Assembly (NCBI GenBank): GCA_028871475.1
Contig: JAGWMZ010000001.1
Span: 1 to 64,000, forward strand
DNA length: 64,000 nucleotides
Direction: 5' to 3'
Origin: Sphingomonadales bacterium
GTDB lineage: Bacteria; Pseudomonadota; Alphaproteobacteria; Sphingomonadales; Sphingomonadaceae
Below are positions 426 through 22,320 of this stretch, piece by piece. Below the pieces are notes generated by a model. That model was not told the origin of the DNA. It saw nothing but the letters and a program-made list of their open reading frames with translations, and ran no database searches. The translations under genes and the position numbers were made by a program. The number at the start of each line of letters is the position of its first letter. Within the stretch, counting starts at the first letter, position 1.

Positions 426-3400
426 TCATCCTCCAAGGCCTTCGGCAGCGCGAGCGATAACAATTGCGGCCTCAAACCTTTTTCGCGTTGGCTCTCTAAG
501 GCGTGTCAGGCTGAATGTGCGTCCATAGTGCGCCAGAATTTCCGCATCGCTTTTGGCTGCCCGGATATGGGGAAGCGCCAAGCTGGCCAGCTCAATGATT
601 GGAATATCCCGGTGGGACCGCCAATCCGACTTTGCGGGTCGGTATGCGACCAGCCTGTCCGCACGTGTGCTGCGGTGGAACAGAACCCTTCGCCCCTCCT
701 CGTCTATTGAAGGATGCCGATCGGCGACCGCCCCCATAACAATATCCTGAATGACACGCCCCGCGCGCTCCTTTTTATGCGCGCGCGCGATCCTCTCAAT
801 CAGCAGGTCCTCATACATGGGCCCTTCCACCTGGAGAACCTCATCAATCAGCAGTTCGAGGTCAGGCCTGTAATCCGCTTCATATATCCGATCTGAATCC
901 TCTGCACCGATGGCGAGGGGGGCGAGTTGATATTCGGCTCCGATTTCATGAATGGGGGGTAGGAAACGCTGCCCACCGTCGACAACGGAGGTCGTTTCTG
1001 GATCTGGAACATTGAGAGGGACTTGCTCCAAATCGACCTCGGCAAGCACATGTAAGCCACGCCCCGCACTTTTCACCGATCCCTTGGCGTGGAGCGAATT
1101 GCCGCGCGAAGGCGACAAGGCGTTGTTCACCAACTCTTCCCATTTTTCTTCGCCGGGCCTGAAATTAGCGGATTCCCGGTCTGCCGCTGACAAGGGCAGA
1201 ATGTTTCCCAGCGCCTTTTTCAGGTCACTGTTAGACCAAACCTGACCATCAGACAGCAGGCCGAGGATAGCAACCTGCACCTGTGGCTCAGTTATCCGAG
1301 AGGGTGGCGCGCTAGGGGCAGTACCAAGCTCGGCAACGGGAAGATCGCCAACTTCTTCAGGTGCTTCAGGCAGTACGAGCTGCTGCCCCCTGTCCGGTTC
1401 CTCGACCGCCAGCAGATCGCGCTCCTCACCTGCCAGGTCAGGACGCCACGCGCGCAGCTCTGTGTGCCGACTGGCCCATTCACCATCGCCACGAACCGGT
1501 TGAATCGCATGGGCTGCCAGGAAGGCTGTGATTTCATCAATCACCGCTTGACGATTGCGGATAAAGCGCGAGGCAAAGCAACGCCAGACTGTCCAGCCTG
1601 CGCGCTCAAGAATGCGCTGACGCATCATATCATCAGGCCATTTGTCCGGCCCGTGATACCGGTCACCGTCGCACTCGATGGCGATGCGCTGATCATTCTC
1701 ACCTTCGACAACAATGTCGATCCTGAAGTTGCCGACACGCACCTGGGTGTTCACCCGAAAGCCCCGCTCGCAGAGCAAGTCGAACATCTCCCGTTCGAAA
1801 TCGGATTCACACCGGCCGCGTCGATCACTCAGGTCCGATGTTTCCGCAGGGTAAGGGCAACGGAAATGCTCGAGCAGCTTCCGGCGCAGTTGATCGCTTG
1901 GGCGTAACTGATCGAGTTCGACCGACCGCACGAGGTAGGTTCGGTCACGTGCCCGCGAAAGGGCCACATTGAATCTCTGCTCAAAGCGGTTGCCAGAGAG
2001 GGGAGTGTCGGCACGTTGCGCGACCAGGGACACGAACATGATGTCCCGCTCGTCGCCCTGGAATGCCGTGGGGTCACCAACCCGAATCTCGTGGCGTTCC
2101 ATCACCTCGGTGCCGAGGCGCTGCTCGATTTCCTGATAGATGTGGGCAGCCTGGTTTTGTCCCAGCAGCGTCGTCACGCCGATGGAACGCTTCGACATCC
2201 GTTCATCCCCGGCAATGGCGGCAATCTCGGCAACGATGAAATCGGCTTCCGGCGGATTGATATCACCCTTGCGGAAACCATCCTCAACAAAAACATCGAT
2301 CAGCGGCGGATCAAGCCGTTCAGATGCCGTGGGAAGCCGAAGCGCTGTCAGGCGATGGCCATAGAACTCACCTTTTGAAAATTCGATGATCGGTGCGACG
2401 CAACGGAAATGCTCGGTCAGCATGATGGCACCGCCAGCGAACACGACCTTGCCGAGATCGTAAAGCGACTGCTCTTCCCTCAGCGATGAACGATAATCGG
2501 CAACCTGGGTGGACAGGTGGCGGGTGGCCAGTTCATCGGCACGTGCCTGGTCACGCCCTATGAGTTCAGGGCTTACCTGTTTGTCATCACCAACAATGAG
2601 AATTTTGCGGGCCCGCAGCAATGCGGGGAGCGCCGCCACGGTCGATTGGGAGGCCTCGTCCACGATGACAAGATCAAACAGCCCGAAGTCGGCTGGCAGC
2701 GATTCCGAAACCCGGTAATGGGGCATGATCCAGCAAGGCAGCGCGCCCTTTGCGCGATCCGATGCCGCGCGAGCCTCCCTGCGATAGCGACCTGCCCGTT
2801 TTCCTGTTCCCTTCCCGATGCGGCGCACTGCGTCCGCATAGGCGGCGAGTGCAGCCTTGACACTGTCTGTCGCTTTCCGGCTCAGCTCCAGCCAAGTTCG
2901 CAGTTCGATTGCATTTTCATAGGCTTTTTTGAGCAAGACTTCCTTCTCGGCACGTTCGGTGCCGAGTTCCTGAAGCCGGGCATGGCGATCGATCCGGGCG
3001 AGCCAAGTGCCAAGGCGCCTAAGTTTCCAACGCCTGGCCCAGTCACCCGGTGTCAGGCTGTCTTCCACCCCCTCCACAGCCCGAGAACGAAGTGCTTCAG
3101 ACCAGCGCGGAGCGCCGGATTCAGAGATAGAGTGGCAAACCCGGTCTATGGTGACGAATGCCTCGGTAAAACCTTCAAGATCGGCAAGCCGAGCCATCAA
3201 AGCCTGCCATTGGGAATGCGCGGTTTCCACCGAGACATCCGGATTGCCCAAGGCATTGACAACATAGTCCTGCAAGGCGCGGGAAATCTCGCCCCCCTTG
3301 GACGACAACATCGTGATCAACTGCGAGCGCATCGCCTCAGCGCCCTGCAGTCGGTATTTCAAGCGATGCGTTTCGACCAGATGGCGCAGTTTGGCTGCAT

Positions 3401-5960
3401 TTTCAGCACGCTCAGAGACGGCTTCGGTCCAACCGGCAATCGCGCCTCGGGCTAGCGCATCGACAGATTGCTGTTGGGCAACGAGTTGCCTCAAGTTATC
3501 AAGGTGCTGTTGTTGGGCTCGAATGCGCTTTGCCACGCCCAGATCGTCTTGGTGGACAGCGTCGCCCACGCCCAGTGAAGTCAGATGGTTCCACGCCTGC
3601 GCCAGCTTCCGGGATTGCCTGATGCCGTCAATGTAACGCTGGATTTCCAGCCATTCTTCAACACCGCGGGGTGTTTCCGCCAGAAGCGTGACCTGCCCCA
3701 ATTTCGTTTTGGTCTTGCCAGAGAACAAGCCGCCGAAACCCAAGGCTGCCCTGCCCTCGCAAAGCCGCTGCAAGGCCGCGAGAAATTTCTCGTCGTCGAG
3801 CGCTCCATCCGGCAGCATGATCGGGCGGGTGAGGAAATGGCTGGCTTCACCAAGGAGATGGTCGATATCCGGCTGGAGCCGTGCCATCGCATCGAGAAAT
3901 TCCTGATCCGCGCCGCCTCGGATGTTACCGCAGGCTTCACCTGTCCAGGTGTACAGGGCGGCGGAAACCTTGGCTTCGATGCCATTCAGTGCATCAAGCT
4001 CGTGCGAAAGCGTCGCCAATCGTTCCGGAGCCTCGCCGTCCGACACGCGCAGATCAGGCAATGTCCCAGCGTTAATCTGGCGCCGCAATTCCTCTGCATG
4101 GGAAAGATCACGATGAACCTGCAGGATATGATCGGTCGAGGGCAAGCTTGCCGATTGAGGAATGGCGACGCCCAGATAGGCAATGTCAGCGCCAACCAGC
4201 TTGCGAGCCTGCCTGAGAGCAACAATGTCCTCATCGCTGAACCGGGCATCGAACCTGGGTTCTGCGTCGATGATATCCGGCAGCCAGGAAGCCAGATCCG
4301 GTTCGGCCACCACCATCCTGGCGGCGTGGACGGGCTCTATAACATCCTCACCCAGTGCAACTGGTGATACGGCAGTGCGCCCTATTGAATCCACCTCATT
4401 GTCATTGCGGGCGAGTGCACGATGCAGATTGTCGATCTGATGATCGAGGTCGGCAATTTGCTGTTCCAGTTCATGCCTGCGCAGGCGCTGCAGCTTTTCG
4501 GCGATGATATCGACGGATTCCTGGAACTGCTTCAGGCCATCACGATCACTGTCGAGCAGGCTGACGGCCAGCGGTCGCACCGCCTCAGGCAATTTGTCGC
4601 GCAGCACACGCAACGCCGGTGCTTTCTGCGAGGTGACCAGCACACGCTTGCCCAACGCGAGATAGTGACTGATGATGTTGGCGATGGTGTGGGTTTTGCC
4701 GGTGCCGGGCGGCCCTTGCACCACAACGCCGGGCCTAACCTCCAACCGCTGCACCGCCTCAACCTGCTCCCGGTTGAACGGCTTGGGGAAGAACAGATCC
4801 TTGCCAGATCCATCGGAAGAGGTGACGCCTGGAATGGTCGATATGCCGCGGAACTGCGGATATTCCGGTTCGTCGATTGTGTCCGAAGGATCGATGAGCA
4901 GGGCGGCCACGGCTGCCGGCAAGCCCGAAGTGACAGCTCCGTCTGAAACGGCTGCCCGGAAGCGGCGAAGGTCTTCCATGAGTTGTGTCGCCCGCCGCTC
5001 CCGCTGGAAGAAGGCAAAGGCCATGCTCACTTGCAACTGCGGTTCGATCGACGGAATCTTCCGCGCTTCGGCAGGCCGAGCATCCGGCACGAAGACACCA
5101 TCAGGATCGAACAGGGCTGAGGCCTGACGCAGGGCCGGTTCGAAACTTGCCGGGATGAAGGGCGAGAGCGCCACATCGTCCAGTCCGGCAAGGAACCTGT
5201 CGGTCGCTGAACGCCACTGGTCCAGCCCATGGACCCCCATCCGGTCCAGCGGATCGACCTCCAGCCCCGGATCAGCTTCAATCCGGGGACGCGCTTCAAG
5301 ACAATGGTTCTTCTCGTCGAGCGACAGCTCCATCGCCATGGACAATAGAGGATAGCGCAGACGCTGTCCGTCGCGGAGCAAAGTGGCAAAGCCAATGCCA
5401 CACGTCAGTTCAACCGGTACGTCGCTGACGCCCTCCAACTGCTGGCGCAACATATAGAGGGCGTTGTAGAGCTTGATGGTTTCACGCCGAGGCTTTTCCC
5501 TTTCCGCCCAAGGCTTCCAGGCGCCATCCAGCCATTCCGCAAAGGCGGCTTCAACCGCCCCGCGCCGTTCATAATCGGCAAGGTCGATGCGCGCAGGGGC
5601 CTCGGCAGGCGAAAGAAGCTCAAGTTCAATCAGGCCGGACGTGGCGATTTCTGATTTGAGGGAAGGCACGACGGCCACATCGTCCCTCATCGATAGCCAG
5701 TTGGCGAGTTCCTGATCCACAGGATTTGGTGGTGCAACCTTGGCAAGGCGCTCCACACGCAACCAGATAGGTTCTTCATCATCGCCGCAGTCGAAAGACA
5801 CGCCCGGTAGACCTGCAATGTCCTCCTCGGTCGCGACAAAACCGCGATGGCCACGATAATCCAACTCGACCTTGAGGCGATCCCGCTCTGTCGCCTCAAC
5901 ATAATCGATCAGGTCGATCAGACGACGAAGCTCTGGAGTGGGCGCAACAGGCGCGTGCAT
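426..5960 (-). CDS. Giant SF1 helicase / PD-(D/E)XK-type nuclease with C-terminal DUF3320-like domain
   Basis: This 1844-residue protein is probably a single-polypeptide DNA-targeting defence effector. The Walker A motif QGPPGTGKT is near residue 415. The Walker B motif VIVDEAS near 1100 is followed by GDDKQ, and VALSRARDRTYLV further on is the last SF1 helicase motif. A Vsr/MTES_1575-like nuclease follows at about 1390-1480 (FRIDIVVEG, then AIECDGDRYHG, then ERAGW). The remaining 350 residues hold a winged-helix-like stretch and a DUF3320-like domain near 1690-1750. A long helical region lies between the helicase halves. The architecture resembles the helicase-Vsr-DUF3320 proteins known from the Hhe defence type, but I do not recognise a DUF4011 domain at the N-terminus. 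It is the last gene of the leftward locus, 227 bp after mcrC. The start is ATG at 5960. Confidence 0.8.
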   Translation of the reverse strand: MHAPVAPTPELRRLIDLIDYVEATERDRLKVELDYRGHRGFVATEEDIAGLPGVSFDCGDDEEPIWLRVERLAKVAPPNPVDQELANWLSMRDDVAVVPSLKSEIATSGLIELELLSPAEAPARIDLADYERRGAVEAAFAEWLDGAWKPWAEREKPRRETIKLYNALYMLRQQLEGVSDVPVELTCGIGFATLLRDGQRLRYPLLSMAMELSLDEKNHCLEARPRIEADPGLEVDPLDRMGVHGLDQWRSATDRFLAGLDDVALSPFIPASFEPALRQASALFDPDGVFVPDARPAEARKIPSIEPQLQVSMAFAFFQRERRATQLMEDLRRFRAAVSDGAVTSGLPAAVAALLIDPSDTIDEPEYPQFRGISTIPGVTSSDGSGKDLFFPKPFNREQVEAVQRLEVRPGVVVQGPPGTGKTHTIANIISHYLALGKRVLVTSQKAPALRVLRDKLPEAVRPLAVSLLDSDRDGLKQFQESVDIIAEKLQRLRRHELEQQIADLDHQIDNLHRALARNDNEVDSIGRTAVSPVALGEDVIEPVHAARMVVAEPDLASWLPDIIDAEPRFDARFSDEDIVALRQARKLVGADIAYLGVAIPQSASLPSTDHILQVHRDLSHAEELRRQINAGTLPDLRVSDGEAPERLATLSHELDALNGIEAKVSAALYTWTGEACGNIRGGADQEFLDAMARLQPDIDHLLGEASHFLTRPIMLPDGALDDEKFLAALQRLCEGRAALGFGGLFSGKTKTKLGQVTLLAETPRGVEEWLEIQRYIDGIRQSRKLAQAWNHLTSLGVGDAVHQDDLGVAKRIRAQQQHLDNLRQLVAQQQSVDALARGAIAGWTEAVSERAENAAKLRHLVETHRLKYRLQGAEAMRSQLITMLSSKGGEISRALQDYVVNALGNPDVSVETAHSQWQALMARLADLEGFTEAFVTIDRVCHSISESGAPRWSEALRSRAVEGVEDSLTPGDWARRWKLRRLGTWLARIDRHARLQELGTERAEKEVLLKKAYENAIELRTWLELSRKATDSVKAALAAYADAVRRIGKGTGKRAGRYRREARAASDRAKGALPCWIMPHYRVSESLPADFGLFDLVIVDEASQSTVAALPALLRARKILIVGDDKQVSPELIGRDQARADELATRHLSTQVADYRSSLREEQSLYDLGKVVFAGGAIMLTEHFRCVAPIIEFSKGEFYGHRLTALRLPTASERLDPPLIDVFVEDGFRKGDINPPEADFIVAEIAAIAGDERMSKRSIGVTTLLGQNQAAHIYQEIEQRLGTEVMERHEIRVGDPTAFQGDERDIMFVSLVAQRADTPLSGNRFEQRFNVALSRARDRTYLVRSVELDQLRPSDQLRRKLLEHFRCPYPAETSDLSDRRGRCESDFEREMFDLLCERGFRVNTQVRVGNFRIDIVVEGENDQRIAIECDGDRYHGPDKWPDDMMRQRILERAGWTVWRCFASRFIRNRQAVIDEITAFLAAHAIQPVRGDGEWASRHTELRAWRPDLAGEERDLLAVEEPDRGQQLVLPEAPEEVGDLPVAELGTAPSAPPSRITEPQVQVAILGLLSDGQVWSNSDLKKALGNILPLSAADRESANFRPGEEKWEELVNNALSPSRGNSLHAKGSVKSAGRGLHVLAEVDLEQVPLNVPDPETTSVVDGGQRFLPPIHEIGAEYQLAPLAIGAEDSDRIYEADYRPDLELLIDEVLQVEGPMYEDLLIERIARAHKKERAGRVIQDIVMGAVADRHPSIDEEGRRVLFHRSTRADRLVAYRPAKSDWRSHRDIPIIELASLALPHIRAAKSDAEILAHYGRTFSLTRLREPTRKRFEAAIVIARAAEGLGG

Positions 5961-6187
5961 TAGCCTTCGACCTCTTCTGGTTGATCCAAACGGTGGCCGG
6001 GCGCTTCACCACCGGTCAGCAGGCTGGCACGGCAATCTTCACCCAAACCACCAGATATCATCGACTTTGCCTATCCCGCATCATCCTCGTAGTCGAGTAG
6101 TCTCAGATATCTTCTAACAAAAGATGCAAAACGCCTGACTGTCGCCGTGCCCCATGGCATCTGTAGGGCTGCCTTTTTCTGATGTTT

Positions 6188-7498
6188 TTAAGCAGCAGCC
6201 TCCCCTCCGCCTTGGAAGGAAAATGAACAAGTGCCGGCCAGTCGCTCCTTGATGCTCTCGCTGCGTGAGACGTCGATTGAGAAAAGCTCCAGTCGATCCG
6301 AACTGGAGGTCACCGCGTAATCGCCGATCACCCCCTCCTCGCACCCAGCCTGGTGATGGTGAGGATAGAGCAAGGTGAGCTTGTTGCATCGATAAAGGCG
6401 GCCATAGGCCATCATCTGATACACGTCAGCCTGCGACACACCGCGCTTGGGATCATCGATACGGGCTGAAATCCGCTTCCATTTGGTGTCGATCACCTGC
6501 AACACGGTGGCACCACGCTTGATGAGGATGTCCGGCCGGGTTTGAAAGACCTTCCGCTGATCCTCTGTTTCGAGACAATAAAGCCGCCCCCCCTGACTGA
6601 CAACGCGTAGGTCAGTGTCGGCCAGCGCGCGTTTCAGCATGCGTGCGATATATTCCTCAAACAGCATGTTCATCTCGAACAGCAGCGAAAAACCTTCGCT
6701 GCCGCCAGAAGACGTGGTCTGGAAGCGGTCGCCCAGCAGCAGACGTGCAAGGTTGAGCAACTCGCGCCAGCGCCCATTGGTGCGATCCAGCACGACATCG
6801 TCCCAGCGCAGCGCGGAGACCGCCACGTCGGCGATATCGGCGTAGGCGAAAGCCAGTTCCCGTAGTCGGCGCTGGTTGTCGGTCGTGCGCGAGATAGCGG
6901 AGAGCCGTATGATCGCCGCCTTCATGATGCGGTTGAGAGCAATATCCGGGGTCAGCGCATCATATCGACATGCTAGCCGCGACGGCTCGACCGCCAGGGC
7001 TGTGAATTGCCGCGTGACATTCAGCCGCCCGCGCAGCGCTGGAAGATCATCGGCATGTTCAACATAGCGCCGCGGCATACCCTGCCGCACGGCATCGACC
7101 AGTTTCTCTGAAAACAGGCGGATCAGGATTTCCAGCAGCGTCTCGCGCTGCCAATCGAGAGCGGTGACCTGCCCAGCGTCAATCTTTAGGTCAAGCGCGA
7201 CGGCAAGCATGTGGACCAACCGGCGACGGATGCTGCCGGTGGCCTGTTCACCATCCTCACCGGGGATATCAATTTTGGGCAGGATTTCGAGCGCGCAGCC
7301 ATTACAGGCGATGACGCCGACAACACCGCGTGCGCGAAGGGCTTTGCGACCGTGCTCTAGCACCCCGCCCCCGCCCCTTCCGGCCAGCGGAGATGCCGCC
7401 GCGACCGCCGCGATGCGATCTGCGGCATTCGGCGGGATTTCGTCCGCCCCTTCACCATAGCGGATGCTTTCCCATTCAAGGAGTGTGCGGCGGATCAC
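6188..7498 (-). CDS. mcrC: McrC-like nuclease subunit of a McrBC type IV restriction system
   Basis: This 436-residue protein fits the McrC family, the endonuclease partner of the McrB GTPase. McrBC cuts DNA carrying modified cytosines. The C-terminal PD-(D/E)XK site is visible as RPDILI near residue 320 and VIDTKW near residue 336, with the catalytic Asp and the DxK pair intact. The N-terminal half is the usual McrC adaptor region (EILPKIDIPG, LACRYDALTPD). The start is GTG at 7498, overlapping the mcrB stop by 4 bases, so the two are translationally coupled. The specificity of this variant is unknown. Confidence 0.85.
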   Translation of the reverse strand: MIRRTLLEWESIRYGEGADEIPPNAADRIAAVAAASPLAGRGGGGVLEHGRKALRARGVVGVIACNGCALEILPKIDIPGEDGEQATGSIRRRLVHMLAVALDLKIDAGQVTALDWQRETLLEILIRLFSEKLVDAVRQGMPRRYVEHADDLPALRGRLNVTRQFTALAVEPSRLACRYDALTPDIALNRIMKAAIIRLSAISRTTDNQRRLRELAFAYADIADVAVSALRWDDVVLDRTNGRWRELLNLARLLLGDRFQTTSSGGSEGFSLLFEMNMLFEEYIARMLKRALADTDLRVVSQGGRLYCLETEDQRKVFQTRPDILIKRGATVLQVIDTKWKRISARIDDPKRGVSQADVYQMMAYGRLYRCNKLTLLYPHHHQAGCEEGVIGDYAVTSSSDRLELFSIDVSRSESIKERLAGTCSFSFQGGGEAAA

Positions 7499-9012
7499 GC
7501 CTTAGGATATCCATCATAGGAGAAGTTGGAACGAACGCTCCAGCGATAGCGCGGAGCCGCGTCCTCATCACCGCCCAGGCCCTTTGGCGCCTTCAGACGA
7601 CGGCGGTCGATGAAGCTGCCCTCCCGATCACCGTCGCCATCATCGCCGTCGCCCAGCACTGCGGCAACCTTTGCCCAATCCTCATAGAAATATTCGGCGA
7701 GCAGCGGGATCACCTTGTGCCGCATCACCTCGTCCACCTCACTCCGTTTCGTGCAGCGGATGAAATAGGCATGGCCGATCTGGTGTTCCCGGTCGAAAAG
7801 ATATTCGATCCGTTCGTTGATGGTCGCAAGTAAAGCCGCAAGGTTGATGCCATCGACCGGCTTTAGCAACGATGCGTCGGGCATCAGTTCGCGAAATTCG
7901 AACCGGCGCCGAAGCGCGGTATCCAGCAGTGCAATCGAACGGTCAGCGGTATTCATTGTGCCAATGATGTGCAGATTGGCAGGCACACCGAACCGCGCGT
8001 TGCTGTAGGGCAAGGTAAGGCGCATGCCCTCGTCCATGCCAAGCCGCTTGTCCGGCTCGATCAGCGTGATCAATTCGCCGAAAACCTTGGAGATGTTGGC
8101 TCGATTGATCTCGTCGATGACAAGAACGTGCTCTTCCGCGCTGAGTTCGGCGGCCTCCGCCATCTGTCGCAGGATGCCCGGCTGCGGTTTCAATGTGAAG
8201 CCGACGCCGTCAGCGAGTGGCTGGGGACGCAACCCTTCGACGAAATCCTCATAGGCATAATTCTGGTGAAAGGTGACGAAGCCGATCTGCCCCTGACCTT
8301 TCAATTCATCATAAGCCTGACGGAGCTCCTGCCGCCGCCCGATATCATTTAAAAGCGGATCGTTACCGGCGAGGCCCCGACATAACCGCACGGCCTCAGC
8401 CATCGTGCGATAGGTCTTGCCAGTACCGGGAGGGCCATAAAGGATCAGGTTGACTGGCGAATGCTTGACGGGGTCAACCTGCACATCCTCTCCTTCCGTC
8501 ACCGCAGGGCTATCCGTTAACTGATCTGGCCAATAAGCCGCGCGAGGAAAACGAGGTGGTGAGCGCAGGGCTTCTTCCGGAGCCTCCACAGCGAAACGCT
8601 GAGAGAAACGTGTAAAATCCTCTTCAGTCAAATGGAAATCCTCCTCTTGACCGAGGCCCCTTCCATCTAATTTTTTACTATATATGCTCAGCACGGGCGG
8701 AGATCCTTGAAGTCCACCAAGAACAGGGAAGCCACGAGCCCTATCTTTTTCCTTTCGCCCAAAGTGCAATTTATATGATCCTATATCAACATAATACCAA
8801 TCAAAGCCAGCATCGTGAATTAGTGCAGCATAACGCAAAAACAACTCCTTCTGAGACTCACCCCATGCCGCATATGAAGAAGAAAATGCTTTATTTACAT
8901 CTGTGAAATGGCGAGATATTTCTTCAATATCCTTACCTTGAATCAAATCACGACCCTCGCTTGCTTGCGAAGATCCCGACACCTGAAAATCCTGCAGCAC
9001 ACCTTCGGACAT
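7495..9012 (-). CDS. mcrB: McrB-like AAA+ GTPase of a McrBC restriction system
   Basis: This 505-residue AAA+ protein has Walker A YGPPGTGKT near residue 195, the Walker B stretch VLVIDEINRANISK, and the McrB hallmark MNTADRSI near residue 353 followed by the arginine-finger region TALRRRFEF. Residues 1-150 form a separate N-terminal domain (YYVDIGSYKLHFGRK is part of it) that I cannot assign. In McrB proteins this position holds the DNA-recognition domain. The DNA for roughly the first 125 residues is much richer in AT than the rest of the gene, which suggests module exchange. Stop and start overlap with mcrC (GTGA). Confidence 0.87.
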   Translation of the reverse strand: MSEGVLQDFQVSGSSQASEGRDLIQGKDIEEISRHFTDVNKAFSSSYAAWGESQKELFLRYAALIHDAGFDWYYVDIGSYKLHFGRKEKDRARGFPVLGGLQGSPPVLSIYSKKLDGRGLGQEEDFHLTEEDFTRFSQRFAVEAPEEALRSPPRFPRAAYWPDQLTDSPAVTEGEDVQVDPVKHSPVNLILYGPPGTGKTYRTMAEAVRLCRGLAGNDPLLNDIGRRQELRQAYDELKGQGQIGFVTFHQNYAYEDFVEGLRPQPLADGVGFTLKPQPGILRQMAEAAELSAEEHVLVIDEINRANISKVFGELITLIEPDKRLGMDEGMRLTLPYSNARFGVPANLHIIGTMNTADRSIALLDTALRRRFEFRELMPDASLLKPVDGINLAALLATINERIEYLFDREHQIGHAYFIRCTKRSEVDEVMRHKVIPLLAEYFYEDWAKVAAVLGDGDDGDGDREGSFIDRRRLKAPKGLGGDEDAAPRYRWSVRSNFSYDGYPKA

Positions 9013-9146
9013 TATTTCATTCCACTAAATTGAGACGATAAAAATAAACATTTAAATATTTGAAATATGAAATTAATAACTTATTTGTTAAATTGAAAAC
9101 ATCAATTTGCTAGAAACTTTCCATGAATTATCGCCTCTTGGGATTT
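9013..9146 (-). promoter_or_regulatory. Very AT-rich spacer upstream of mcrB, probable promoter region
   Basis: The 134 bases between the AddA-like gene and mcrB are dominated by A and T (runs such as ATTTAAATATTTGAAAT), in sharp contrast to the GC-rich neighbours. It is the only large non-overlapping gap inside the first part of the locus, so mcrBC plus the giant helicase may have their own promoter here. I cannot pick a convincing -35/-10 pair. Confidence 0.35.
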
Positions 9147-12100
9147 TCAGTAGATCGCGATTGGTAATTCACCCACAGACAATTCACCCACATCTGTCCA
9201 GAAAATGGCCATTCCGCTCACGGGCCTTCCTCCCATTGCGTCGACCGCATCGGCATAAGCCGCCAATTGCGGCCAATAGGTCGCGAAACGTGCTGCGTGA
9301 TCGGCCACAGCGCCGCTCTTGTGGTCGACGATCATGTAGCCATCTTGGCCTTCCGCGATCAGGTCGATGATGGCTGTTTGCCTGCCGCCATCGGCCAGAG
9401 CAATCTCCAGAGGCTGCTCCACATGCAGATCGGGATAGCCCAGTTCCGCCAGTGCCCGGCGCAAGCCTTCTGCCTGCAGGGCAATGGCCTCGACATCCCC
9501 GGCTTCCATCCGGCAATGCGCCGCGACCCGGTCCTTCAGATCAGGGCGTTGCAGCAGGATGCGGAAGGCATCGTGCATCGCCGTTCCCCGGTCGGCGGCG
9601 AGAGCAAGGCTCTCTCCTGCGACACGCACACCAGGCGCGATAGCGCGTGTTTCCAGATTTTCGGGCACGGGGCGCCCCGTTACAACCGCCTGCGATGGGC
9701 TCAGCACGGCAATTCTTTGCATCGGTGCCTGCGACACCAATGCAAAACGCAAATCGCGATCGGCCACCACCGCGCCATCTGAAGCATCGGCTTCAAAGCT
9801 GGCCGGAATGTCCTTGCCACACACAATCTGCCGGGCCGGGAAGCGATCCTTGCCAACCAGCAGACCCCCTCCCTCGATCGCCACGCCGCACAGATCGCTC
9901 ATCAGGCGGCGGGCGGTGATCGGCAGGGGCGGCTCATCCGCGCCATCGTCCTGCGGCCATTCCAGGATCAGCCGGTTGCGCGCGCGGGTCAGCGCCACAT
10001 ACAGCAGTCGCCGCGCATTCTGGTCCGCCTCGGGGCGCAGGCCCACAAGGAAGCGCTCGCTCGCTTCTGGCGCGGCAAAGGCCGGAGCATAGGCCAATTG
10101 CGCTCCCTCGACCACATGGTCGAGATCCTCGAAGCCGGGGAAGATCGTGCTGAACACCCCGCTGCGCGGATCCAGCTTCTGGTCCAGCCCGCAAACCACC
10201 ACCACCGGCCATTCACGCCCCTTCGAGGCATGCCAGGTGATGATTTCGACCCCATCAGCCTCCAGCCCGGCGGGATTGGGGCGCTTGTCCTCACCCTTCA
10301 GATTCATCCGGCTTTCCAGCCAGCCCAGGAAGACATTGGCACCCTGACCATAGAAGCCCGATGCCTCGCGCATATCGCGATGGGCCTCAAGGAAGGCGCT
10401 GGCCTCGGCCTCGAAGCGCAGCAGATCGGCACGCATCTGCGCCGGGTCCTCCAGCCGGTCGCACCATCCCCGCAGGCCGCCCGCCGCAATGACCCGCGCC
10501 ACCAGATGATCGACAGGCATCGCCGCCGCCTCCGGCCACAGCGCATCGAGCGCGGCCAGTTCCGGCGTGACGATCCGCCCCTCGCGCGCCAGCATGCCCA
10601 GCGCCTCTTCCAGAGGGGTGCCGCCCGGCCCCAGCGTTGCCACGCAGAGGGCCGCATGGCGGTCCTGCGGGTTGACGGCATAGCGCAGGGCAAAGCAGGC
10701 GGCCTGCACGATCCGGCTCTGCCACCAACCGTCCTCGGCGACACGCACCGGCAGACCCAGAGCGCGCAAGGCGGCGGCATAATCGGAACAGCGGCTGTGC
10801 GTCGGGCAGAGGATGGCAATATCCCTGGCCTCCAGCGCCCGCGGCTGCTTGCTGTGACGGTCGATGATCGACACAGCCTCATCTTCCAGCAGCGAGAGCA
10901 GGCGGTCCGCCACGAAATGCTGCGGCTTGCCCGGGGTTCTGGCATTGCGCTTGGCGCCCAGAGCGATCACCTCCAGCGCGGTTTCGTCGCCCGACTCGTT
11001 CTGCGGCGTCAGCGCGGTGTAGCCTTCGCCGAACAGCTTGGGCCCCAGCGCATTGACCAGCGCCATGATGCGCGGGTCCGAGCGCCAGTTGCGGTCCAGC
11101 GGGCTGGTTTCGAACTGGCCGATCAGCGCTTCGGTCAGGCGCGGATCGGCACCCTGAAAGCCCATGATCGCCTGCTTGGTGTCGCCCACGATCAGCGCGT
11201 GTTTCGCCTGCCGCGCCAGCGTCCAGAGGAAGGTGAACTGGATCGGGTTGGTGTCCTGAAACTCATCGACGATCACACAATCGACCTCGGCCAGCACCGA
11301 GGAGAGGATCGCCGGGTTCTCGCGCAGCAGCCGTGCGGCATTGGTCACCATATCGCCGAAATCGATGACGGCGAGCGCCTTCTTGCGCGCCTCGTAATCG
11401 GCCATGGCGGACTGCGCCCCCTCGACCAGCGCGCGGGCGTGGAGCACGGCGTCCTCCAGCGGGCCGGGATGGGTTGGCAGGGCGTCGGCGGCGTCCATCA
11501 CCGCCTGCGCCAGATCGTCATAGCCCTCGGGCGTCGCGCTGCCCTTCTTGCTCAACCGCAAACCGCGCAGCTTCTGCCATAGGCTCCAGTCATGTTCGCT
11601 CCGTGCCAGCGCGGTGCGGGCGCGCTGCAAGGCACTGAAATTGTCGCGGAAAGCGGTGCGGGCGGTCTCATTGCCCATGGTGTCAGCCAGAGATCGGGGA
11701 AAGGCCGCCAGCAACGCCTCGACGGCCACCAGGAGGCGGGCATCCAGCGCAGCGCCCTTGCCCTGCGGTTTGCCATAGCCTTCCCGGATCGAGGCCTCGA
11801 CGAAGCCGGCCATCGCCGGATCGGCCCCGCGCGGCCCCAGCGCGCGCAGCAAGGCGATGACATCGAGCAGCTTCTTGCGGAACCCGTCCTCCACGCTCTC
11901 GTCCGAGGTGAAGCTGGCGCGATAGCCATGCGCCGCCAGATTGCGCGCCAGCGCATTGAGCGCCTCATTCTCATCGATGGCGCGGCGGATCAGCAAATCC
12001 TGCTCATCCTCGGCGATCAGGCGCTGTTGGGGCGAGGAACCGCTGGCCAACGCATGCTCCACCAGCAGGCGGCGGCCCAGACCGTGAATGGTCGAAACAT

Positions 12101-12323
12101 AGGCCCGCTCCACCGCCAGAGCCGCGCGCAGATTGCCATCGGCGATCAGGGCCGCGCGGATGCGCTGGCGCAACTCGCCCGCCGCCGCCTCGGTGAAGGT
12201 CACAGCCAGAATGCGCTCGGGCCGCACCAGACCATCGCGCACCCAGCGCACCAGCGTTTCCTGAATGTGGTGAGTCTTGCCCGCGCCCGCACCAGCGGGG
12301 ACGATCGAAAGGTCTGTCATCAT
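9147..12323 (-). CDS. AddA-like UvrD-family helicase-nuclease
   Basis: This 1058-residue protein is built like the AddA subunit of AddAB (RecBCD-type) helicase-nucleases. Helicase motifs are intact: Walker A AGAGAGKT at residues 11-18, IVDEFQDTN near 350, GDTKQAIMGFQG, ITWHASKGREWPVV and YVALTRARNRLIL. A PD-(D/E)XK nuclease closes the protein: AIIDLIAE, then MIVDHKSG near residue 1000, then the YWPQLAAYADAV motif. Its ATG overlaps the TGA of the AddB-like gene, so the pair is co-translated. AddAB normally resects double-strand breaks with Chi control. This copy sits on a mobile island inside a defence cluster, so a dedicated anti-phage or anti-plasmid role is more likely than housekeeping repair (inference). 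Confidence 0.85.
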   Translation of the reverse strand: MMTDLSIVPAGAGAGKTHHIQETLVRWVRDGLVRPERILAVTFTEAAAGELRQRIRAALIADGNLRAALAVERAYVSTIHGLGRRLLVEHALASGSSPQQRLIAEDEQDLLIRRAIDENEALNALARNLAAHGYRASFTSDESVEDGFRKKLLDVIALLRALGPRGADPAMAGFVEASIREGYGKPQGKGAALDARLLVAVEALLAAFPRSLADTMGNETARTAFRDNFSALQRARTALARSEHDWSLWQKLRGLRLSKKGSATPEGYDDLAQAVMDAADALPTHPGPLEDAVLHARALVEGAQSAMADYEARKKALAVIDFGDMVTNAARLLRENPAILSSVLAEVDCVIVDEFQDTNPIQFTFLWTLARQAKHALIVGDTKQAIMGFQGADPRLTEALIGQFETSPLDRNWRSDPRIMALVNALGPKLFGEGYTALTPQNESGDETALEVIALGAKRNARTPGKPQHFVADRLLSLLEDEAVSIIDRHSKQPRALEARDIAILCPTHSRCSDYAAALRALGLPVRVAEDGWWQSRIVQAACFALRYAVNPQDRHAALCVATLGPGGTPLEEALGMLAREGRIVTPELAALDALWPEAAAMPVDHLVARVIAAGGLRGWCDRLEDPAQMRADLLRFEAEASAFLEAHRDMREASGFYGQGANVFLGWLESRMNLKGEDKRPNPAGLEADGVEIITWHASKGREWPVVVVCGLDQKLDPRSGVFSTIFPGFEDLDHVVEGAQLAYAPAFAAPEASERFLVGLRPEADQNARRLLYVALTRARNRLILEWPQDDGADEPPLPITARRLMSDLCGVAIEGGGLLVGKDRFPARQIVCGKDIPASFEADASDGAVVADRDLRFALVSQAPMQRIAVLSPSQAVVTGRPVPENLETRAIAPGVRVAGESLALAADRGTAMHDAFRILLQRPDLKDRVAAHCRMEAGDVEAIALQAEGLRRALAELGYPDLHVEQPLEIALADGGRQTAIIDLIAEGQDGYMIVDHKSGAVADHAARFATYWPQLAAYADAVDAMGGRPVSGMAIFWTDVGELSVGELPIAIY

Positions 12324-15025
12324 GCCTCTTCCGCCAGGATTACCGAAGGCGCATCATCCTCGCGCAGGAAGGCCGCAATCAGCGGGCTGTCCTGCAAGGC
12401 ATAGGTGCCCAGCGACGCCTTTTTGGTGAAGAAATCCGCGTCCGCCGTGGTGTTGATCGTCAGGCGCCCGGCCCGCAGCGCAGCAAAGCGCGCCTCGATC
12501 TGTGCCACCGCCTGCTCGGCGATATCGCCGTCGATCACTTCGAGATGATCGCTCTCGATCTCGGTGAGGCCATTGACCAGCACCCCGCCGTCGTTGAGCA
12601 TATGGTAGGCCACACCGGGCAGGCGGTTGGTGGCCAGCGCGGCGGCGATCCTGCGGACCGGCTCGCCACTCTCCTCGTCCAGCCGCACATTCATGCGGCG
12701 ATAGAGATCGACCTGCAAATCCCACCCGGCCCTGAGCCGCTTGCGCCGCCCGCCCGAACTGCTTTTCTTGTAGTCGATCACCACGGCCTGCCCATCGGCC
12801 AGCCGCAGCAGGCAATCGGCCTTGCCATGCACGGGGTGACCGAAAATCTCGCCCGAGAGCCAGAATTCATTGCCCACGATCTCAGCCCCCAACGCAGTGA
12901 GCACCTGCGACCAATGGCGGGCCGCCTTGACGATCTCGCTTTCCAGCGTGCGCCGCTCAACCAGCCAGGCCGGGCTTTGCAGGAAGGGGGCGATGGCGCG
13001 GATGCGCTCCATCAGCAGATCGGGGACCAGCGCCGCGATAGCATCATGATCGGGATGGTCGCTACCGGGCGGGAACAGCAGTTCGAACACCTCATGCGCC
13101 AGCGACCCGCGCAGCATGACATCGAGCGTCTCGGGTGCCCAGGACACCTGCCTGGCCCCCAACTCGCCCAGCAGCCAGGCAAGCGGGCTGACCAGCAGCG
13201 TTTCCAGCCGGCTCGGGCTCTGGGGCCGCAGGCTGCCATCCTCCTTGCGGCGCAGGCCGAGCAGGTCGATCCCGAACTCCAGATGCGGCGGCAGATCGGG
13301 CGCCTCGATGGCCTTGAACTCGGGCCGCGCGCGCCAGGCGACAAGCCGGTCCCAGATCGTGCCTGCCCCGCGCACCATCGGCACGACCAGATCATCGGGC
13401 GCGGCGATACCCTCCACCAGCCGCGCCATCAGCGGCAGGCTGGAGGACGGCGCCAGCGCGCCACCGCTGCGGTCCCGCTCGGAGAGCAGCAACACGATCT
13501 GCTCGCTGGCACAGCCCAACTGGCGGATGAACAGCGCCAGCGCGCGATCCAACTGACTGGCCATGGAGGGCAGCGCGAGGCCCGTCTGCTCACCGATCAG
13601 CGCCACCTCACTGTCGAGGAAGAAGGGATTGCCCGAGGGCGCGCAAGGATAGGCGCCATCATTGAACCCCAGCACCAGCAGCTTGCGATAGGAGCGGTCC
13701 GGTGCCTCATGCGCCAGCATCACCCGCACACCGCCCAGCAGATAGGGGCCGCGCCGGGCCGCGATCGGCTGATAGGCGGCGGCGAAACGGATCGCCTTGT
13801 CGAAATCGGGCTCGGCGGCGTCGACCGCGCCCCCCAGCGCGGTGGCCAGCCGGGCGAGTTGCGCCTTGGCTTCCAGCACATCGTCTTTCAGCGCCTCATC
13901 CTCGCTGAGCAGATGACGGAAGCGGCGAAGCTGGTCCTTCAGTTCGGCGGTGGTGGTGGGCGACGGCGAACGGATCAGATGGAAGAGCGACTTGGCCCTA
14001 TCGCTCAGGCCCTCGATCAGGCGCGGGGCATAGTCGCCGCCCATCACGGCGGCGGCCAGCGCCGCCCCCACCTCAGGCGGCCAGCAGAGGACCGGTGAGC
14101 TGTAGAGCGAGGCCAGCGCCATCGCGGGGGCGGGCCGCCTGCGGCATTCCACGAAATGCAAGACTGCCTCCGCGCCCACGTTGCGGCGGGTGGCGGTGCC
14201 GGGCAGCAGGGAGGCGGCAAGGCCGACCACCGCGAAGGCATCGGCAAGGCTGGCAGCATAGGCGCCGTCTGCGGGCAGGATCACGCCGATGTCGGCGGGC
14301 TTGAGCGTCGGGTCCTGGGCCAGCCAGTTCTGGATGATCGCGGCGGCGGCCTCGCCTTCGCTCAGGCTGTCGCGCACCGAGAGGACGGCAAAGCTGTCGT
14401 CGGCAGGACGCCGGGGCGCCTGCGGATCCAGCATAAAGCGCTGAACATGCCCGGCCAGCGTGGCCTCCGAAGCCGCCGGGGCCTGACGCTTGCCGATCAG
14501 GCGCGCTGCATCGGCGTCCCCAGCCTCGATCGCGCCGTGATGCGCCTCCAGCCGCTCCAGAACGGCGCGTTCAAGGGGCGTTAGGTTCTGCATGTTACGA
14601 TCCCAGATCAGCTTGAGAGGCTGCACGGCATCCTTCGCCTCGCTGGCCAGAAAGTGCTTCAGCCGGGCGAGATCGGCGGGCAGAATGGCCTCATTTGCCG
14701 CCCACAGATCGCGCAACGCCTCCAGATGATAGCGCGCGCGGCTGCCTGCCTCCAGAGCTTCGGCTCGAATGGAGGCCGGGTTCAGATCCATGGTCGCCAG
14801 CATCACCTGCCGCAGCATCGCGCTGACCGCCTGCAAGGTCTGCTCGGGCGCGATGGCAAGGCTGGCGCTCCACGGCCTGTCTTCGCCGCCCTTATCCAGC
14901 GCGCCGCGCAGATCGGGCTCGTCCCGCGCCGGCAGGGCATAGAGCCCGGCCAGCAATTGTACCGTCAGCGGCGTGCAACTTGCGAAGCGGCCGGGCCCGA
15001 GCCGCAGATAGCAATCGTCAAACAT
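12320..15025 (-). CDS. AddB-like PD-(D/E)XK nuclease subunit
   Basis: This 901-residue protein resembles AddB. The middle region has the family pattern VRVMLAHEAPDRSYRK followed by LVLGFNDGAYP. The C-terminal nuclease shows RGSLAHEVFELL, GKADCLLRL near residue 737, VVIDYKKS near 752 and DLQVDLYRRM. I see no Walker A motif at the N-terminus, so it should not be an ATPase. I also see no four-cysteine iron-sulphur pattern. It is the first gene after the WYL regulator and overlaps the AddA-like gene by 4 bases. Confidence 0.82.
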   Translation of the reverse strand: MFDDCYLRLGPGRFASCTPLTVQLLAGLYALPARDEPDLRGALDKGGEDRPWSASLAIAPEQTLQAVSAMLRQVMLATMDLNPASIRAEALEAGSRARYHLEALRDLWAANEAILPADLARLKHFLASEAKDAVQPLKLIWDRNMQNLTPLERAVLERLEAHHGAIEAGDADAARLIGKRQAPAASEATLAGHVQRFMLDPQAPRRPADDSFAVLSVRDSLSEGEAAAAIIQNWLAQDPTLKPADIGVILPADGAYAASLADAFAVVGLAASLLPGTATRRNVGAEAVLHFVECRRRPAPAMALASLYSSPVLCWPPEVGAALAAAVMGGDYAPRLIEGLSDRAKSLFHLIRSPSPTTTAELKDQLRRFRHLLSEDEALKDDVLEAKAQLARLATALGGAVDAAEPDFDKAIRFAAAYQPIAARRGPYLLGGVRVMLAHEAPDRSYRKLLVLGFNDGAYPCAPSGNPFFLDSEVALIGEQTGLALPSMASQLDRALALFIRQLGCASEQIVLLLSERDRSGGALAPSSSLPLMARLVEGIAAPDDLVVPMVRGAGTIWDRLVAWRARPEFKAIEAPDLPPHLEFGIDLLGLRRKEDGSLRPQSPSRLETLLVSPLAWLLGELGARQVSWAPETLDVMLRGSLAHEVFELLFPPGSDHPDHDAIAALVPDLLMERIRAIAPFLQSPAWLVERRTLESEIVKAARHWSQVLTALGAEIVGNEFWLSGEIFGHPVHGKADCLLRLADGQAVVIDYKKSSSGGRRKRLRAGWDLQVDLYRRMNVRLDEESGEPVRRIAAALATNRLPGVAYHMLNDGGVLVNGLTEIESDHLEVIDGDIAEQAVAQIEARFAALRAGRLTINTTADADFFTKKASLGTYALQDSPLIAAFLREDDAPSVILAEEA

Positions 15026-15056
15026 CTCTGGTCTTTCGCAGCAGAATCACAACATC

Positions 15057-15077
15057 TGTTGGATTAGACATCCAACA
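15057..15077. promoter_or_regulatory. Inverted repeat upstream of the AddB-like gene (candidate operator)
   Basis: Perfect 8-bp inverted repeat TGTTGGAT-TAGAC-ATCCAACA, 32 to 52 bases upstream of the AddB-like start and just past the WYL gene stop. The symmetry and position fit a dimeric repressor site, plausibly for the WYL protein. It could instead be a weak terminator of the WYL gene, but there is no U-tract. Confidence 0.4.
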
Positions 15078-15089
15078 CGACAAAAATGG

Positions 15090-16082
15090 TCATGGCAGAC
15101 TGGCCAGCGCCGATTGGGCCAGCGTCAGCCTTTCGCGCATCACATCACGCAGGGCGGGCGGCCCCTCGATCACGATGTTCCCGCCCCAGGTGAAGAGATG
15201 ATCGGCGATTTCCCGCAGCCCCCCGGCACGGAAGCGGACAAGCAGGGTTTCGCCATCCTCCACGACGGTCTGGGCCGGGTGGAACCGCCAGGATCGCGCC
15301 TTGGGCACCGAGGGCGCCAGCACCCGCAGCACGATATCATGGTCATCCTCGCGCCAAATACCGAAGCTGTCGGCCAGCCAGGCATCGAGATCCCAGTCCT
15401 CCGGCGGACAGCCCAGCACCTCGCTGGCGCGGACATTGGTCATCCGGTCGAGGCGGAAGGTATAGGGCGAGTCATCGCGATCCGGCATCTTGCCCAGCAG
15501 ATAGGTCACGGGCCCATGCATTAGCCCATACGGCACCACGCGGCGCCACGAGGGTGTTTCAGCGCCATCGGGCCGATAGTCGAATTCCACGCAATGCCCG
15601 GAAAGGATCGCGGCCTGAATTTCGGTCAGATCCTCGGGCGACACATCCACAATCGGCCCCGCTGGCACGCGCGAGCGCTGCAGGCGGGTCAGCAGGTCCA
15701 GATCATTGTCGAGGCGACGGCGGCCAGCGCTGTCGAAGGCCAACTTGATCTTGGAGAGCAGCGTGGCCAGCGCTCGCGCATTGGCCGTGCCATCACGCTG
15801 CCCGGCATCGACAACGGCCTCCAGCGCGGCGACCTCGCGCGCGTTCGGACGTGCATAGGCAGGCCCCGGACTGTCGGAGATGCGAAAGCGTTTACGCCGA
15901 CCATCGGCAATCTCCTCCAGATCAAAATGGATCAGGATGACATTGCGCAAACGCTCCACCGTGCGTCGATCGACCAAAATCAGATCGGCCATCTCGTCGA
16001 GCGTCAACCCTTCAATATTGCCGGCAAGAGCGTGGATGAGGGTCAGGATATTGTCGAGCTTGGTCAGGCGGCGCTGGGTCAT
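15090..16082 (-). CDS. WYL-domain transcriptional regulator of the defence locus
   Basis: This 330-residue protein has an N-terminal winged helix (LTLDEMADLILVDRRTVERL, residues about 25-45), a central WYL domain (GHCVEFDYRPDG, then YGLMHGPVTYLLGK) and a C-terminal WCX-like extension (VLRVLAPSVP, then VRFRAGGLREIADHL). WYL regulators such as BrxR and CapW repress phage-defence operons and are thought to respond to nucleic-acid or small-molecule ligands. It is the first gene of the leftward locus, 64 bp before the AddB-like gene. Two inverted repeats flank it (15057-15077 and 16146-16166). Confidence 0.85.
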   Translation of the reverse strand: MTQRRLTKLDNILTLIHALAGNIEGLTLDEMADLILVDRRTVERLRNVILIHFDLEEIADGRRKRFRISDSPGPAYARPNAREVAALEAVVDAGQRDGTANARALATLLSKIKLAFDSAGRRRLDNDLDLLTRLQRSRVPAGPIVDVSPEDLTEIQAAILSGHCVEFDYRPDGAETPSWRRVVPYGLMHGPVTYLLGKMPDRDDSPYTFRLDRMTNVRASEVLGCPPEDWDLDAWLADSFGIWREDDHDIVLRVLAPSVPKARSWRFHPAQTVVEDGETLLVRFRAGGLREIADHLFTWGGNIVIEGPPALRDVMRERLTLAQSALASLP

Positions 16083-17618: not shown

Positions 17619-18797
17619 ATGAGCGATGTGGATGCAGTTTCTGGCGCCGATGACGCGGACTTGGTAGCTGGACACGAAGATCAGACTGCGGCGGCAGCAG
17701 CGTTTGTCGCGCAGGTTACGGAATATGTGTTGGATTTCGACAAGGGCCATCCTCATGCGAACATTCTCATCGCTGGCAAGACAGGTGTTGGCAAGAGCAC
17801 TCTGATCAATACGGTGTTTCGTGGTGATATGGCGGAGACTGGCATTGGCCGCCCGGTCACACAGGCAATTGACGAAATCACAAAAGCTGATGTTCCCCTG
17901 ACGATCATCGACACAAAAGGGCTTGAACTGGCTGATTTCACGCCCATTCGGACCGATATCCTGAATTATATTGAAGCTCGCAAAGGTGAAGACGCCAAGA
18001 CGTATGTGCATGTTGCATGGTTGTGCATAAGCGATAGCAGCGCGCGTATCGAGGATGCCGAATTGGATTTGGCCAAGGCTCTAAAGGATGCTGGCCTCCA
18101 AGTGATCGTCGTCCTGACCAAGGTTTCTCGCTTCAAGGACAATCCATTTGAGGCTGTTGTTCGTGAACAGTTTCGAGATATTACCAGCGACATTGTGCTT
18201 GTTCGCGCACTATCCCAGAACATTTACGACGACGAAGATAATGTAACTTCTCGGCAGGAAGTTCGTGGGATCGATCAATTGCTAAATTTGAGCTACATTC
18301 GCCTTCCGGAGGCGCAAAAATACTCATTTGCAAATTCAGCATCAATATCTCACAAAAAAGCTCAAGAAATAAAGCGCAATGAATCCGAAACTGCGATCAA
18401 TTATTTTTGCACAGCAGCGTTCGCGATAGGTGCCGCCCCGATCCCTTTTTCGGATGCTGCGCTTCTCGCTCCTCTCCAAGCGGGCATGATTATCAAGATA
18501 AGTGATGTTTATGGAATGGACATCGGCCTTAATAATGTCGGCCAAGTGATGACCTCGATGGTTGGGGTTTCTGGGGCGATCTCAATGGTTGGCAAACAGA
18601 TCGTCACCGGCGCGATGAAGCTTGTGCCTGGCGCTGGATCATTGGTTGGCGGAACCATCTCTGGGACTACTGCAGCAGGCCTGACCAAAGCTCTAGGCTC
18701 TCAATATGCATCTGCCCTGTCCGAAATCAACGATAAAGGTAAAGAATTAACGATAGATGCGGCGATCGCTGCAGTCCGGAAGCGCATTCCGTTTTGA
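17619..18797 (+). CDS. Era/YcjF-like GTPase with C-terminal DUF697-like membrane region
   Basis: The 392 residues contain a P-loop GTPase: G1 AGKTGVGKSTLIN near residue 52, G3 TIIDTKGLE near 97 (DTKG in place of DxxG), and G4 VVLTKVSRF (TKxS, weaker than NKxD) near 165. The region from about 260 onward has alternating hydrophobic, glycine-rich segments (AAFAIGAAPIPFSDAALLAP, AMKLVPGAGSLVGGTISG) that resemble DUF697. A good Shine-Dalgarno AAGGAG precedes ATG 17619. Base composition in the middle (about 18.2-18.4 kb) is richer in AT than in the neighbours. A strong hairpin terminator follows. Its role is unknown; stress or defence functions are possible because of the island context. Confidence 0.75.
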   Translation: MSDVDAVSGADDADLVAGHEDQTAAAAAFVAQVTEYVLDFDKGHPHANILIAGKTGVGKSTLINTVFRGDMAETGIGRPVTQAIDEITKADVPLTIIDTKGLELADFTPIRTDILNYIEARKGEDAKTYVHVAWLCISDSSARIEDAELDLAKALKDAGLQVIVVLTKVSRFKDNPFEAVVREQFRDITSDIVLVRALSQNIYDDEDNVTSRQEVRGIDQLLNLSYIRLPEAQKYSFANSASISHKKAQEIKRNESETAINYFCTAAFAIGAAPIPFSDAALLAPLQAGMIIKISDVYGMDIGLNNVGQVMTSMVGVSGAISMVGKQIVTGAMKLVPGAGSLVGGTISGTTAAGLTKALGSQYASALSEINDKGKELTIDAAIAAVRKRIPF

Positions 18798-22194: not shown

Positions 22195-22320
22195 TACTTG
22201 CGCTACCCCACCCTTACTGAACCTTGCTCCTCCTACAGGTGCAGTTTTTGTGGAGGTTCCCGTCGTTATGGATCGACCCACTTTTCCATCCACGCCTAAA
22301 AAAAAGGTGCGGCGTGATGG
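22195..22320. other. Relaxase upstream region with inverted repeat, candidate oriT
   Basis: Between the relaxase and the first exonuclease gene there is an imperfect inverted repeat with arms CCATCCACGCC (22286-22296) and GGCGTGATGG (22311-22320) around an A8 run. An origin of transfer usually sits beside its relaxase gene and contains inverted repeats near the nick site, so this is the best candidate in the island. No nick consensus is recognised. On the minus strand the A8 becomes a T8 run and could equally belong to the adjacent terminator. Confidence 0.3.

Follow-up and report, generated by a model that had tools for sequence, protein, structure and literature searches.

Catalogues of defence systems usually treat each as a unit of its own. 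In the literature searched, the nearest precedent for the locus described here is a group of UvrD–Cas4 fusions (PMC5704561), for which an ancillary role in several defence pathways has been proposed; type III restriction genes accompany them, as do WYL genes in several of the loci. That precedent is one fused protein, whereas our locus has a two-subunit, AddAB-type pair and exchangeable cassettes. The literature searched, with subscription papers outside it, describes no AddAB-type pair with Azaca, McrBC or Tiamat, and no such platform appears in the available passages of PMC12839542, PMC11090510, PMC9122601, PMC12458937, PMC10952713, PMC12948488 and PMC3925955. The locus occupies positions 426–16082 of a 64,000-nucleotide stretch (the window) of a Sphingomonadales bacterium (assembly GCA_028871475.1, contig JAGWMZ010000001.1) and comprises six leftward genes, for a WYL-domain regulator, AddB- and AddA-type subunits, McrB, McrC and a giant helicase-nuclease. 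We find that WYL–AddB–AddA is a recurrent, patchily distributed head module separate from the housekeeping AddAB. Judged by sequence, the six genes look like three modules (head, exchangeable tail and giant) and not like one six-gene system. A sequence-only reading of the window had left open one staged system or several stacked ones; the loci compared point instead to a third arrangement, a recurrent head (76 of 80 AddB loci with AddA) followed by exchangeable tails (39 of 59 loci).

The AddAB-type pair and its McrBC tail

All six genes lie on the minus strand. The first gene of the head module encodes the WYL-domain regulator (15090–16082; 330 amino acids (aa); WYL and WCX domains) and is followed by those for the AddB-type subunit (12320–15025; 901 aa; helicase-like N-terminal fold and C-terminal RecB-family nuclease with DYKK at 751–754) and the AddA-type subunit (9147–12323; 1058 aa; UvrD-family helicase with GAGAGKT at 11 and VDEFQD at 352, and a C-terminal nuclease with VDHKS at 999). 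Behind them come the McrB AAA+ motor (7495–9012; Walker A GPPGTGKT at 193, MNTADRS at 353), the McrC nuclease subunit (6188–7498; RPD...DTKW, with the whole PF10117 profile matched at residues 54–379) and the giant helicase-nuclease (426–5960; 1844 aa; superfamily 1 (SF1) helicase halves, MTES_1575 at 1388–1481, DUF3320 at 1690–1738). The sequence-only reading was right on the layout: the open reading frame (ORF) list has six real, intact leftward genes at the coordinates it gave, the AddB/AddA and McrB/McrC genes overlap by 4 nucleotides (nt) at 12320–12323 and 7495–7498, and Pfam recovers the four nuclease domains (PDDEXK_1 in both AddB and AddA, McrBC (PF10117) in McrC, MTES_1575 in the giant), the three motors (UvrD in AddA, AAA_5 in McrB, AAA_11/AAA_12 in the giant), DUF3320 in the giant and WYL with WCX in the regulator. 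The catalytic motifs expected for the enzymes are present in AddA, AddB, McrB and McrC, and the giant has GPPGTGKT; the labels stand for what we take the motifs of AddA, AddB, McrB (the MNTAD signature), McrC and the giant to be.

The window pair resembles AddAB (Bacillus subtilis structures 3u44, 4ceh, 4cei and 4cej; alphaproteobacterial TIGR02784) in its two adjacent genes, in an AddA that joins a UvrD-type helicase to a C-terminal nuclease and in an AddB with a helicase-like predicted fold and a C-terminal nuclease. Specifically, AddA has the SF1A helicase, Walker A, motif II and C-terminal PD-(D/E)XK nuclease of its namesake, and the predicted model of AddB shows the helicase-like fold and C-terminal nuclease over its full length, with the AddB of AddAB as its top Protein Data Bank (PDB) match in a structure search; an AddB sequence profile run against the PDB gave nothing above noise. 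Residues H644, D737, D751, K753, Q771 and Y775 are invariant in 19 of 19 aligned AddBs, window included, down to 38% identity. The AddB nuclease of B. subtilis carries iron–sulphur cysteines; such a set is absent from the five defence-type AddBs listed and from the genome's housekeeping AddB.

Unlike AddAB, the window AddA falls in a separate clade, far from housekeeping AddA, and the pair is patchy, often stands beside WYL and defence cassettes and lies far below the TIGR02784 cut-off; because AddA scores 136.7 bits against a curated cut-off of 860.75, we name the pair AddAB-type and do not file it as AddAB. The housekeeping AddA encoded elsewhere in the same genome scores 975 bits, above the cut-off, and is 26% identical to the window AddA over 467 aa. 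We rejected the candidate that the window pair is the genome's repair enzyme, since a housekeeping AddAB exists at G000:C1:237647. TIGR02784 finds a match in 25 of 31 genomes of the class; the defence-type AddB occurs in 4 of 396 genomes of the order, window's included, and matched no PADLOC model. WYL genes 67–72% identical sit directly upstream of AddB in most sphingomonad loci, and the WYL domain adjoins a defence operon as in regulators of the BrxR/CapW kind.

The tail is comparable to McrBC, the type IV restriction system, in its AAA+ McrB with MNTAD, its McrC with PF10117 and its overlapping genes. McrC scores 251.9 bits against PF10117 and has the PD-(D/E)XK residues, and McrB is by sequence an AAA+ motor, a putative GTPase, with the MNTAD signature. 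By contrast with McrBC as described, the window McrBC sits behind a WYL–AddBA head, has a short McrB and misses the NCBIfam equivalog cut-offs, which are of Escherichia coli type (McrC 121 versus 338 bits, McrB 125 versus 637 bits). The N-terminal ~180 aa of McrB match nothing in Pfam, and the predicted local distance difference test (pLDDT) score of the model is <50 over most of residues 1–181. The AAA+ domain is widespread, with at least 120 relatives listed, many at 60–90% identity; few of those listed cover the N-terminal region.

Third-position GC is 0.76–0.83 in WYL, AddB and AddA and 0.58–0.69 in McrB, McrC and the giant, with chromosomal mfd at 0.81; this break between AddA and McrB suggests two origins for the two sets of genes. 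Gaps of 134 nt precede mcrB and 227 nt precede the giant. A weak promoter-like match lies at 9091–9064 in the AddA–mcrB gap, such sites being no more numerous than in shuffles, and sigma-70 and terminator scans of the locus likewise gave counts at shuffle level. The two gaps and the weak match would allow separate transcription of the modules.

Exchange of cassettes behind AddA

We assembled loci that are alphaproteobacterial by their record titles (cited by our handles, such as L016) from the best 80 of 96 AddB relatives, obtained from the AddB alignment via two peptide patterns; their genes were called by a script using length and third-position GC, by which small genes may be missed or mis-started. 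AddA relatives were present in 76 of the 80. The census of the slot behind AddA covers the 59 loci in which both AddB and AddA are present and the sequence extends at least 2.5 kb beyond AddA, the other 21 of 80 being left out; 'none' means no match to the four cassettes used (Azaca, Azaca-like, McrBC and Tiamat), and counts of loci are not counts of independent events, since the loci are related by descent. A same-strand cassette stands behind AddA in 39 of the 59 (Azaca 12, Azaca-like 22, McrBC 4, Tiamat 1), and one on the opposite strand in a single locus, the McrB-like gene of L030, a strand bias of 39:1. In 51 of 59 loci AddA is followed first by a gene on its own strand. For the 35 loci in which no called gene separates the cassette from AddA, the spacing ranges from −59 to 148 nt, and 18 of the 35 cassettes overlap AddA by 1 or 4 nt. 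Cassette genes stand before AddB in three loci (L012, L039 and L066).

Azaca (ZacABC) is the commonest named partner in the slot, with DUF6361, PLD-type and helicase genes behind AddA in its 12 loci; unlike the wider arrangement seen here, the PADLOC matches name ZacA, ZacB and ZacC only (457, 588 and 1148 bits in one representative). The window's own genome gave no ZacC match at E 1e-60. Tiamat was recognized by TmtA, at 1763 bits in one representative. The Azaca-like cassette (L052:15612-21185 and 21 other loci) comprises a protein of ~404 aa, a PLD-type protein of ~600 aa and a SNF2/ResIII helicase of ~870 aa. Profile comparison with Azaca relates its helicase at 96.8% and its PLD gene at 86.8% probability and gives no match for the first gene, which in the representative matched no Pfam or PADLOC family; the three genes are possibly an undescribed system.

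McrBC recurs behind AddBA in four other loci (L016, L023, L070 and L075) from two orders, three of them with WYL. L016, from a Sphingomonadales bin, has WYL–AddB–AddA–McrB–McrC 48–68% identical to the window, its WYL and AddB genes being separated by a called ORF of 96 aa, and L075, from a Roseobacteraceae genome, has the same five genes in the same order. L023 has a divergent WYL and one additional gene ahead of McrB, and L070 has no WYL match and a 93-aa ORF ahead of McrB. In L023, McrC is 85% identical to that of the window, against 47% for AddB and 52% for AddA, from which it follows that the tail moves apart from the head. The possibility raised by the sequence-only reading that the genes meet only here by chance thus fails for AddBA with McrBC, given these four loci, and largely holds for the giant.

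The architecture and the swapping of cassettes are directly observed. On an AddA tree of 41 rows, 40 with a cassette label (a quick search, with long branches for L023, L074 and others), cassette type needs at least 10 changes, against a minimum possible of 3, and McrBC alone needs 4 changes for 5 rows. L072 and L052 share 94.3% identity across 12,090 bp, ending 124–136 nt before the AddA stop, after which L072 carries Azaca and L052 the Azaca-like cassette; identity returns ~100 nt past the cassette, at 90.6% over 566 bp. L072 and L054 follow the same pattern (12.2 kb at 93.0%, followed by 565 bp at 79.6%). Between L057 and L060 the identity is 97.8% across 8,335 bp and is lost 142 nt ahead of the AddA stop; different cassettes follow (Azaca in L057, Azaca-like in L060), beyond which the two share a match of only 137 bp at 75%. 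In the otherwise 94%-identical pair L072 and L052, the cassette alone is exchanged: the replaced segment starts within the 3′ end of AddA and reaches ~100 nt beyond the cassette.

We rejected, as a general rule, the idea that AddA ends in an adaptor tail specific to its cassette, since the tail tracks the cassette only at body identities of at least 85%. At 93–100% body identity the tail score is 0.90 for same-cassette pairs (n=44) and 0.34 for different-cassette pairs (n=9), at 85–93% it is 0.54 (n=25) versus 0.31 (n=18), and below 85% the two kinds of pair do not differ.

A second AddBA lineage emerged from sampling by ZacC, which is independent of AddB and gave 33 plasmid records, of which all 14 non-Cronobacter and 2 of 19 Cronobacter records were examined. 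AddB–AddA lies directly before the Azaca genes in 10 of the 14 non-Cronobacter records: Niveispirillum (H41/L121), Bradyrhizobium sp. 195, two Shinella, R. phaseoli, R. sullae, R. etli, Mesorhizobium, A. tumefaciens F2 and A. fabrum. The two Shinella records and A. tumefaciens F2 are near-copies; the AddB of A. tumefaciens F2 is annotated 'hypothetical', and the PLD gene of A. fabrum is annotated as two pieces. Rhizobium NXC14 has ZacC alone, with no AddB–AddA pair before it. Among 385 Alphaproteobacteria genomes, five have ZacC, with AddBA upstream in L121 and L123 and not in L122, the remaining two contigs ending too soon. The gene order in this lineage is AddB–AddA–ZacA–ZacB–ZacC; its AddAs are ~27% identical to the window's, and its AddBs gave no BLAST match to the window AddB at E 1e-3. 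An AddA tree with housekeeping enzymes and both defence lineages is unrooted between the three groups. Directly before AddB–AddA–Azaca, the rhizobial plasmid loci L128:1-1650, L132, L135, L137, L171 and L172 carry genes annotated as ThiF-family and DUF6527, to which L128 and L132 add multiubiquitin; L129 has similarly sized, unnamed genes in that place.

Upstream of AddB (up to five called genes on either strand, in the 61 loci with at least 3.5 kb), WYL occurs in 36 loci, a double-AAA ATPase in 29, a phosphatase/ADP-ribosylglycohydrolase in 19 and BREX genes in 8. The double-AAA ATPase and the phosphatase fused to ADP-ribosylglycohydrolase adjoin the WYL gene (L052:5057-9737 and many loci) and are a possible control layer. 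BREX-like genes precede AddB–AddA in L044 and seven other loci, with the Azaca-like cassette downstream in the seven of these eight that reach far enough; brxL was called by PADLOC family search and brxC (part), pglX and pglZ by reading of the sequences, and in several of the BREX loci the gene calls show two reverse-strand ORFs at the probable position of the PLD-type gene.

Readings of the head and its cassettes

From this architecture we infer the following biochemistry and anti-phage effect. Other known defence units occupy the same spot in relatives, so the AddAB-type shredder likely finishes DNA opened by interchangeable cutters; we think it somewhat probable that the WYL–AddB–AddA head degrades invader DNA from ends that the exchangeable cassette, here McrBC, is predicted to provide. 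The WYL protein would activate the genes when infection or DNA damage occurs. McrBC would cleave modified phage DNA, and AddA would engage the ends and move along the DNA as a motor, with the nucleases of AddA and AddB cutting both of its strands. The giant, probably an independently acquired helicase-nuclease, would work by itself or share that DNA as its substrate. From the pattern of swaps, one 'chewer' seems to be reused with many 'cutters'. More broadly, and with confidence a little short of even, we propose a mobile WYL-controlled AddAB-type engine, freed from repair, as the common motor for plug-in cassettes (McrBC, Azaca, Azaca-like and Tiamat, with BREX upstream in some), swapped at a socket in the addA 3′ end and each retargeting the same shredder. 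If this were true, the conserved helicase-nuclease head with its replaced cassette would mean that a single DNA-disposal engine is common to unrelated systems. A synteny that PADLOC does not record would then have an explanation, and a direct test would open up of whether RecBCD/AddAB-type enzymes have been recruited as dedicated immune effectors.

Several observations weigh against a head that works with its cassette. The 134-nt AddA–McrB gap and the GC change in the window point to looser coupling than in the Azaca loci. None of the four cassettes lies behind AddA in 20 of the 59 loci, two of which (L012 and L039) have theirs before AddB instead, and some heads look broken, split or shortened in the gene calls (L020, L024 and L045). 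Azaca also occurs without AddBA, in Phaeobacter, Halomarina, B. elkanii and L122, and no AddBA precedes it in either Cronobacter record examined. The AddA C-terminal tail, as said, follows the cassette only among closely similar AddAs. Neither a WYL nor a cassette match lies within the 20 kb around the genome's second AddB–AddA pair (G000:C16, in L097); ten plasmid records carry a defence-type AddB, and of the five opened, L139 and L141 have the Azaca-like cassette and L105, L140 and L142 have no cassette match. Given this second copy and the cassette-less plasmids, the pair may act alone, with no cassette required. Neither Tiamat nor BREX is known as an end-maker, so the label 'cutter' does not fit every partner.

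An alternative that we regard as unlikely is a stacked defence island of mobile modules, in which the slot behind AddA is only a recombination-prone place and the modules are neighbours, perhaps under one promoter, that do not work on a common DNA. The GC break at the AddA/McrB boundary, the recombination within the AddA 3′ end that separates near-identical loci, the 20 of 59 loci with no recognized cassette, the giant that joins the set only here among the cases opened and the position of the locus on an integrated element all fit such stacking. It accounts less well for the 39:1 strand bias, the overlaps or very short gaps and the few kinds of cassette, or for a second, deeply diverged AddBA lineage that keeps the order AddB–AddA–ZacA–ZacB–ZacC.

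More doubtful still is that AddBA is a self-sufficient defence or a spare AddAB, which attacks or repairs ends when a phage disables the housekeeping enzyme, with the cassettes as passengers. Pairs without a cassette match do exist (the genome's second copy, and an N. humi plasmid with WYL), and there is a precedent in Gabija, proposed in PMC12407980 to restrict phages that antagonize RecBCD; against this, the cassette is kept in the same place in 39 of the 59 testable loci. A single staged system of recognition, resection and degradation by all six genes, giant included, is very improbable despite their shared strand and order at 426–16082, because the giant lies away from AddBA and McrBC in four other genomes and does not adjoin them on three plasmids, differs from the head in GC and follows a 227-nt gap; as an obligate six-gene system we rejected it, the giant adjoining the set only here among the cases opened.

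The giant helicase-nuclease and the integrated element

Compared with the head and its tail, the giant looks like an independent add-on that adjoins the AddBA–McrBC set only in the window among the cases opened. It occurs in 5 of 396 genomes of the order, window's included, and the 19 kb fetched around it in each of the other four contains no AddBA or McrBC match; in one of our genomes (G114) it comes after MmeI-like and GmrSD-like genes. Its helicase and C-terminal region match PDC-S37 (249 bits), ProA (277.4), Hhe (143) and Mokosh MkoA (118); unlike members of ProA and Hhe, it falls below their NCBIfam cut-offs (1500 for ProA, NF058533, and 2000 for Hhe), so by those tests it belongs to neither.

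The closest relatives of the giant lie on sphingomonad plasmids in other operons. Those on three such plasmids that we opened (L101:1-17550, L102 and L103; a fourth record, H13, was left out of the comparison) are 76–77% identical over the matched part, one being split by an insertion sequence, and these plasmids are conjugative. The plasmid giant stands last in a series of genes whose annotations are nuclease (RecB-like), exonuclease/phosphoesterase, AAA ATPase or hypothetical, DNA methyltransferase and restriction endonuclease; SbcD/SbcC-like genes are among them. pMSHV also has an McrBC pair, ~7 kb past the giant and separated from it by other genes, and a different Sphingobium plasmid has a shortened DUF3320 gene immediately next to a divergent WYL gene. 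A search of plasmid DNA returned no record spanning most of the window locus, and a search of viral contigs found one relative.

The six-gene locus forms the left end of an integrated element of ~30.9 kb at a tRNA-Met gene. The left end carries a copy of the 3′ part of that gene (248–305, the first 51 nt identical to 31135–31192), and the right end has the intact gene (31135–31211, minus strand), beside which lies a tyrosine integrase gene (Phage_integrase; 29938–31095, plus strand). Parts of the tRNA and right-flank stretch match in 58 of 59 same-genus genomes, window's included; the contig begins 247 bp left of the element. Inside the element, weak matches below the cut-offs point to a MobA/MobL or TraA-like relaxase (19732–22293, minus strand), and a GTPase gene with DUF697 and low GC lies at 17619–18797. 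Inverted near-repeats of 23 nt (87%) just inside the element ends, at 306–328 and 31113–31135, are possible integrase sites.

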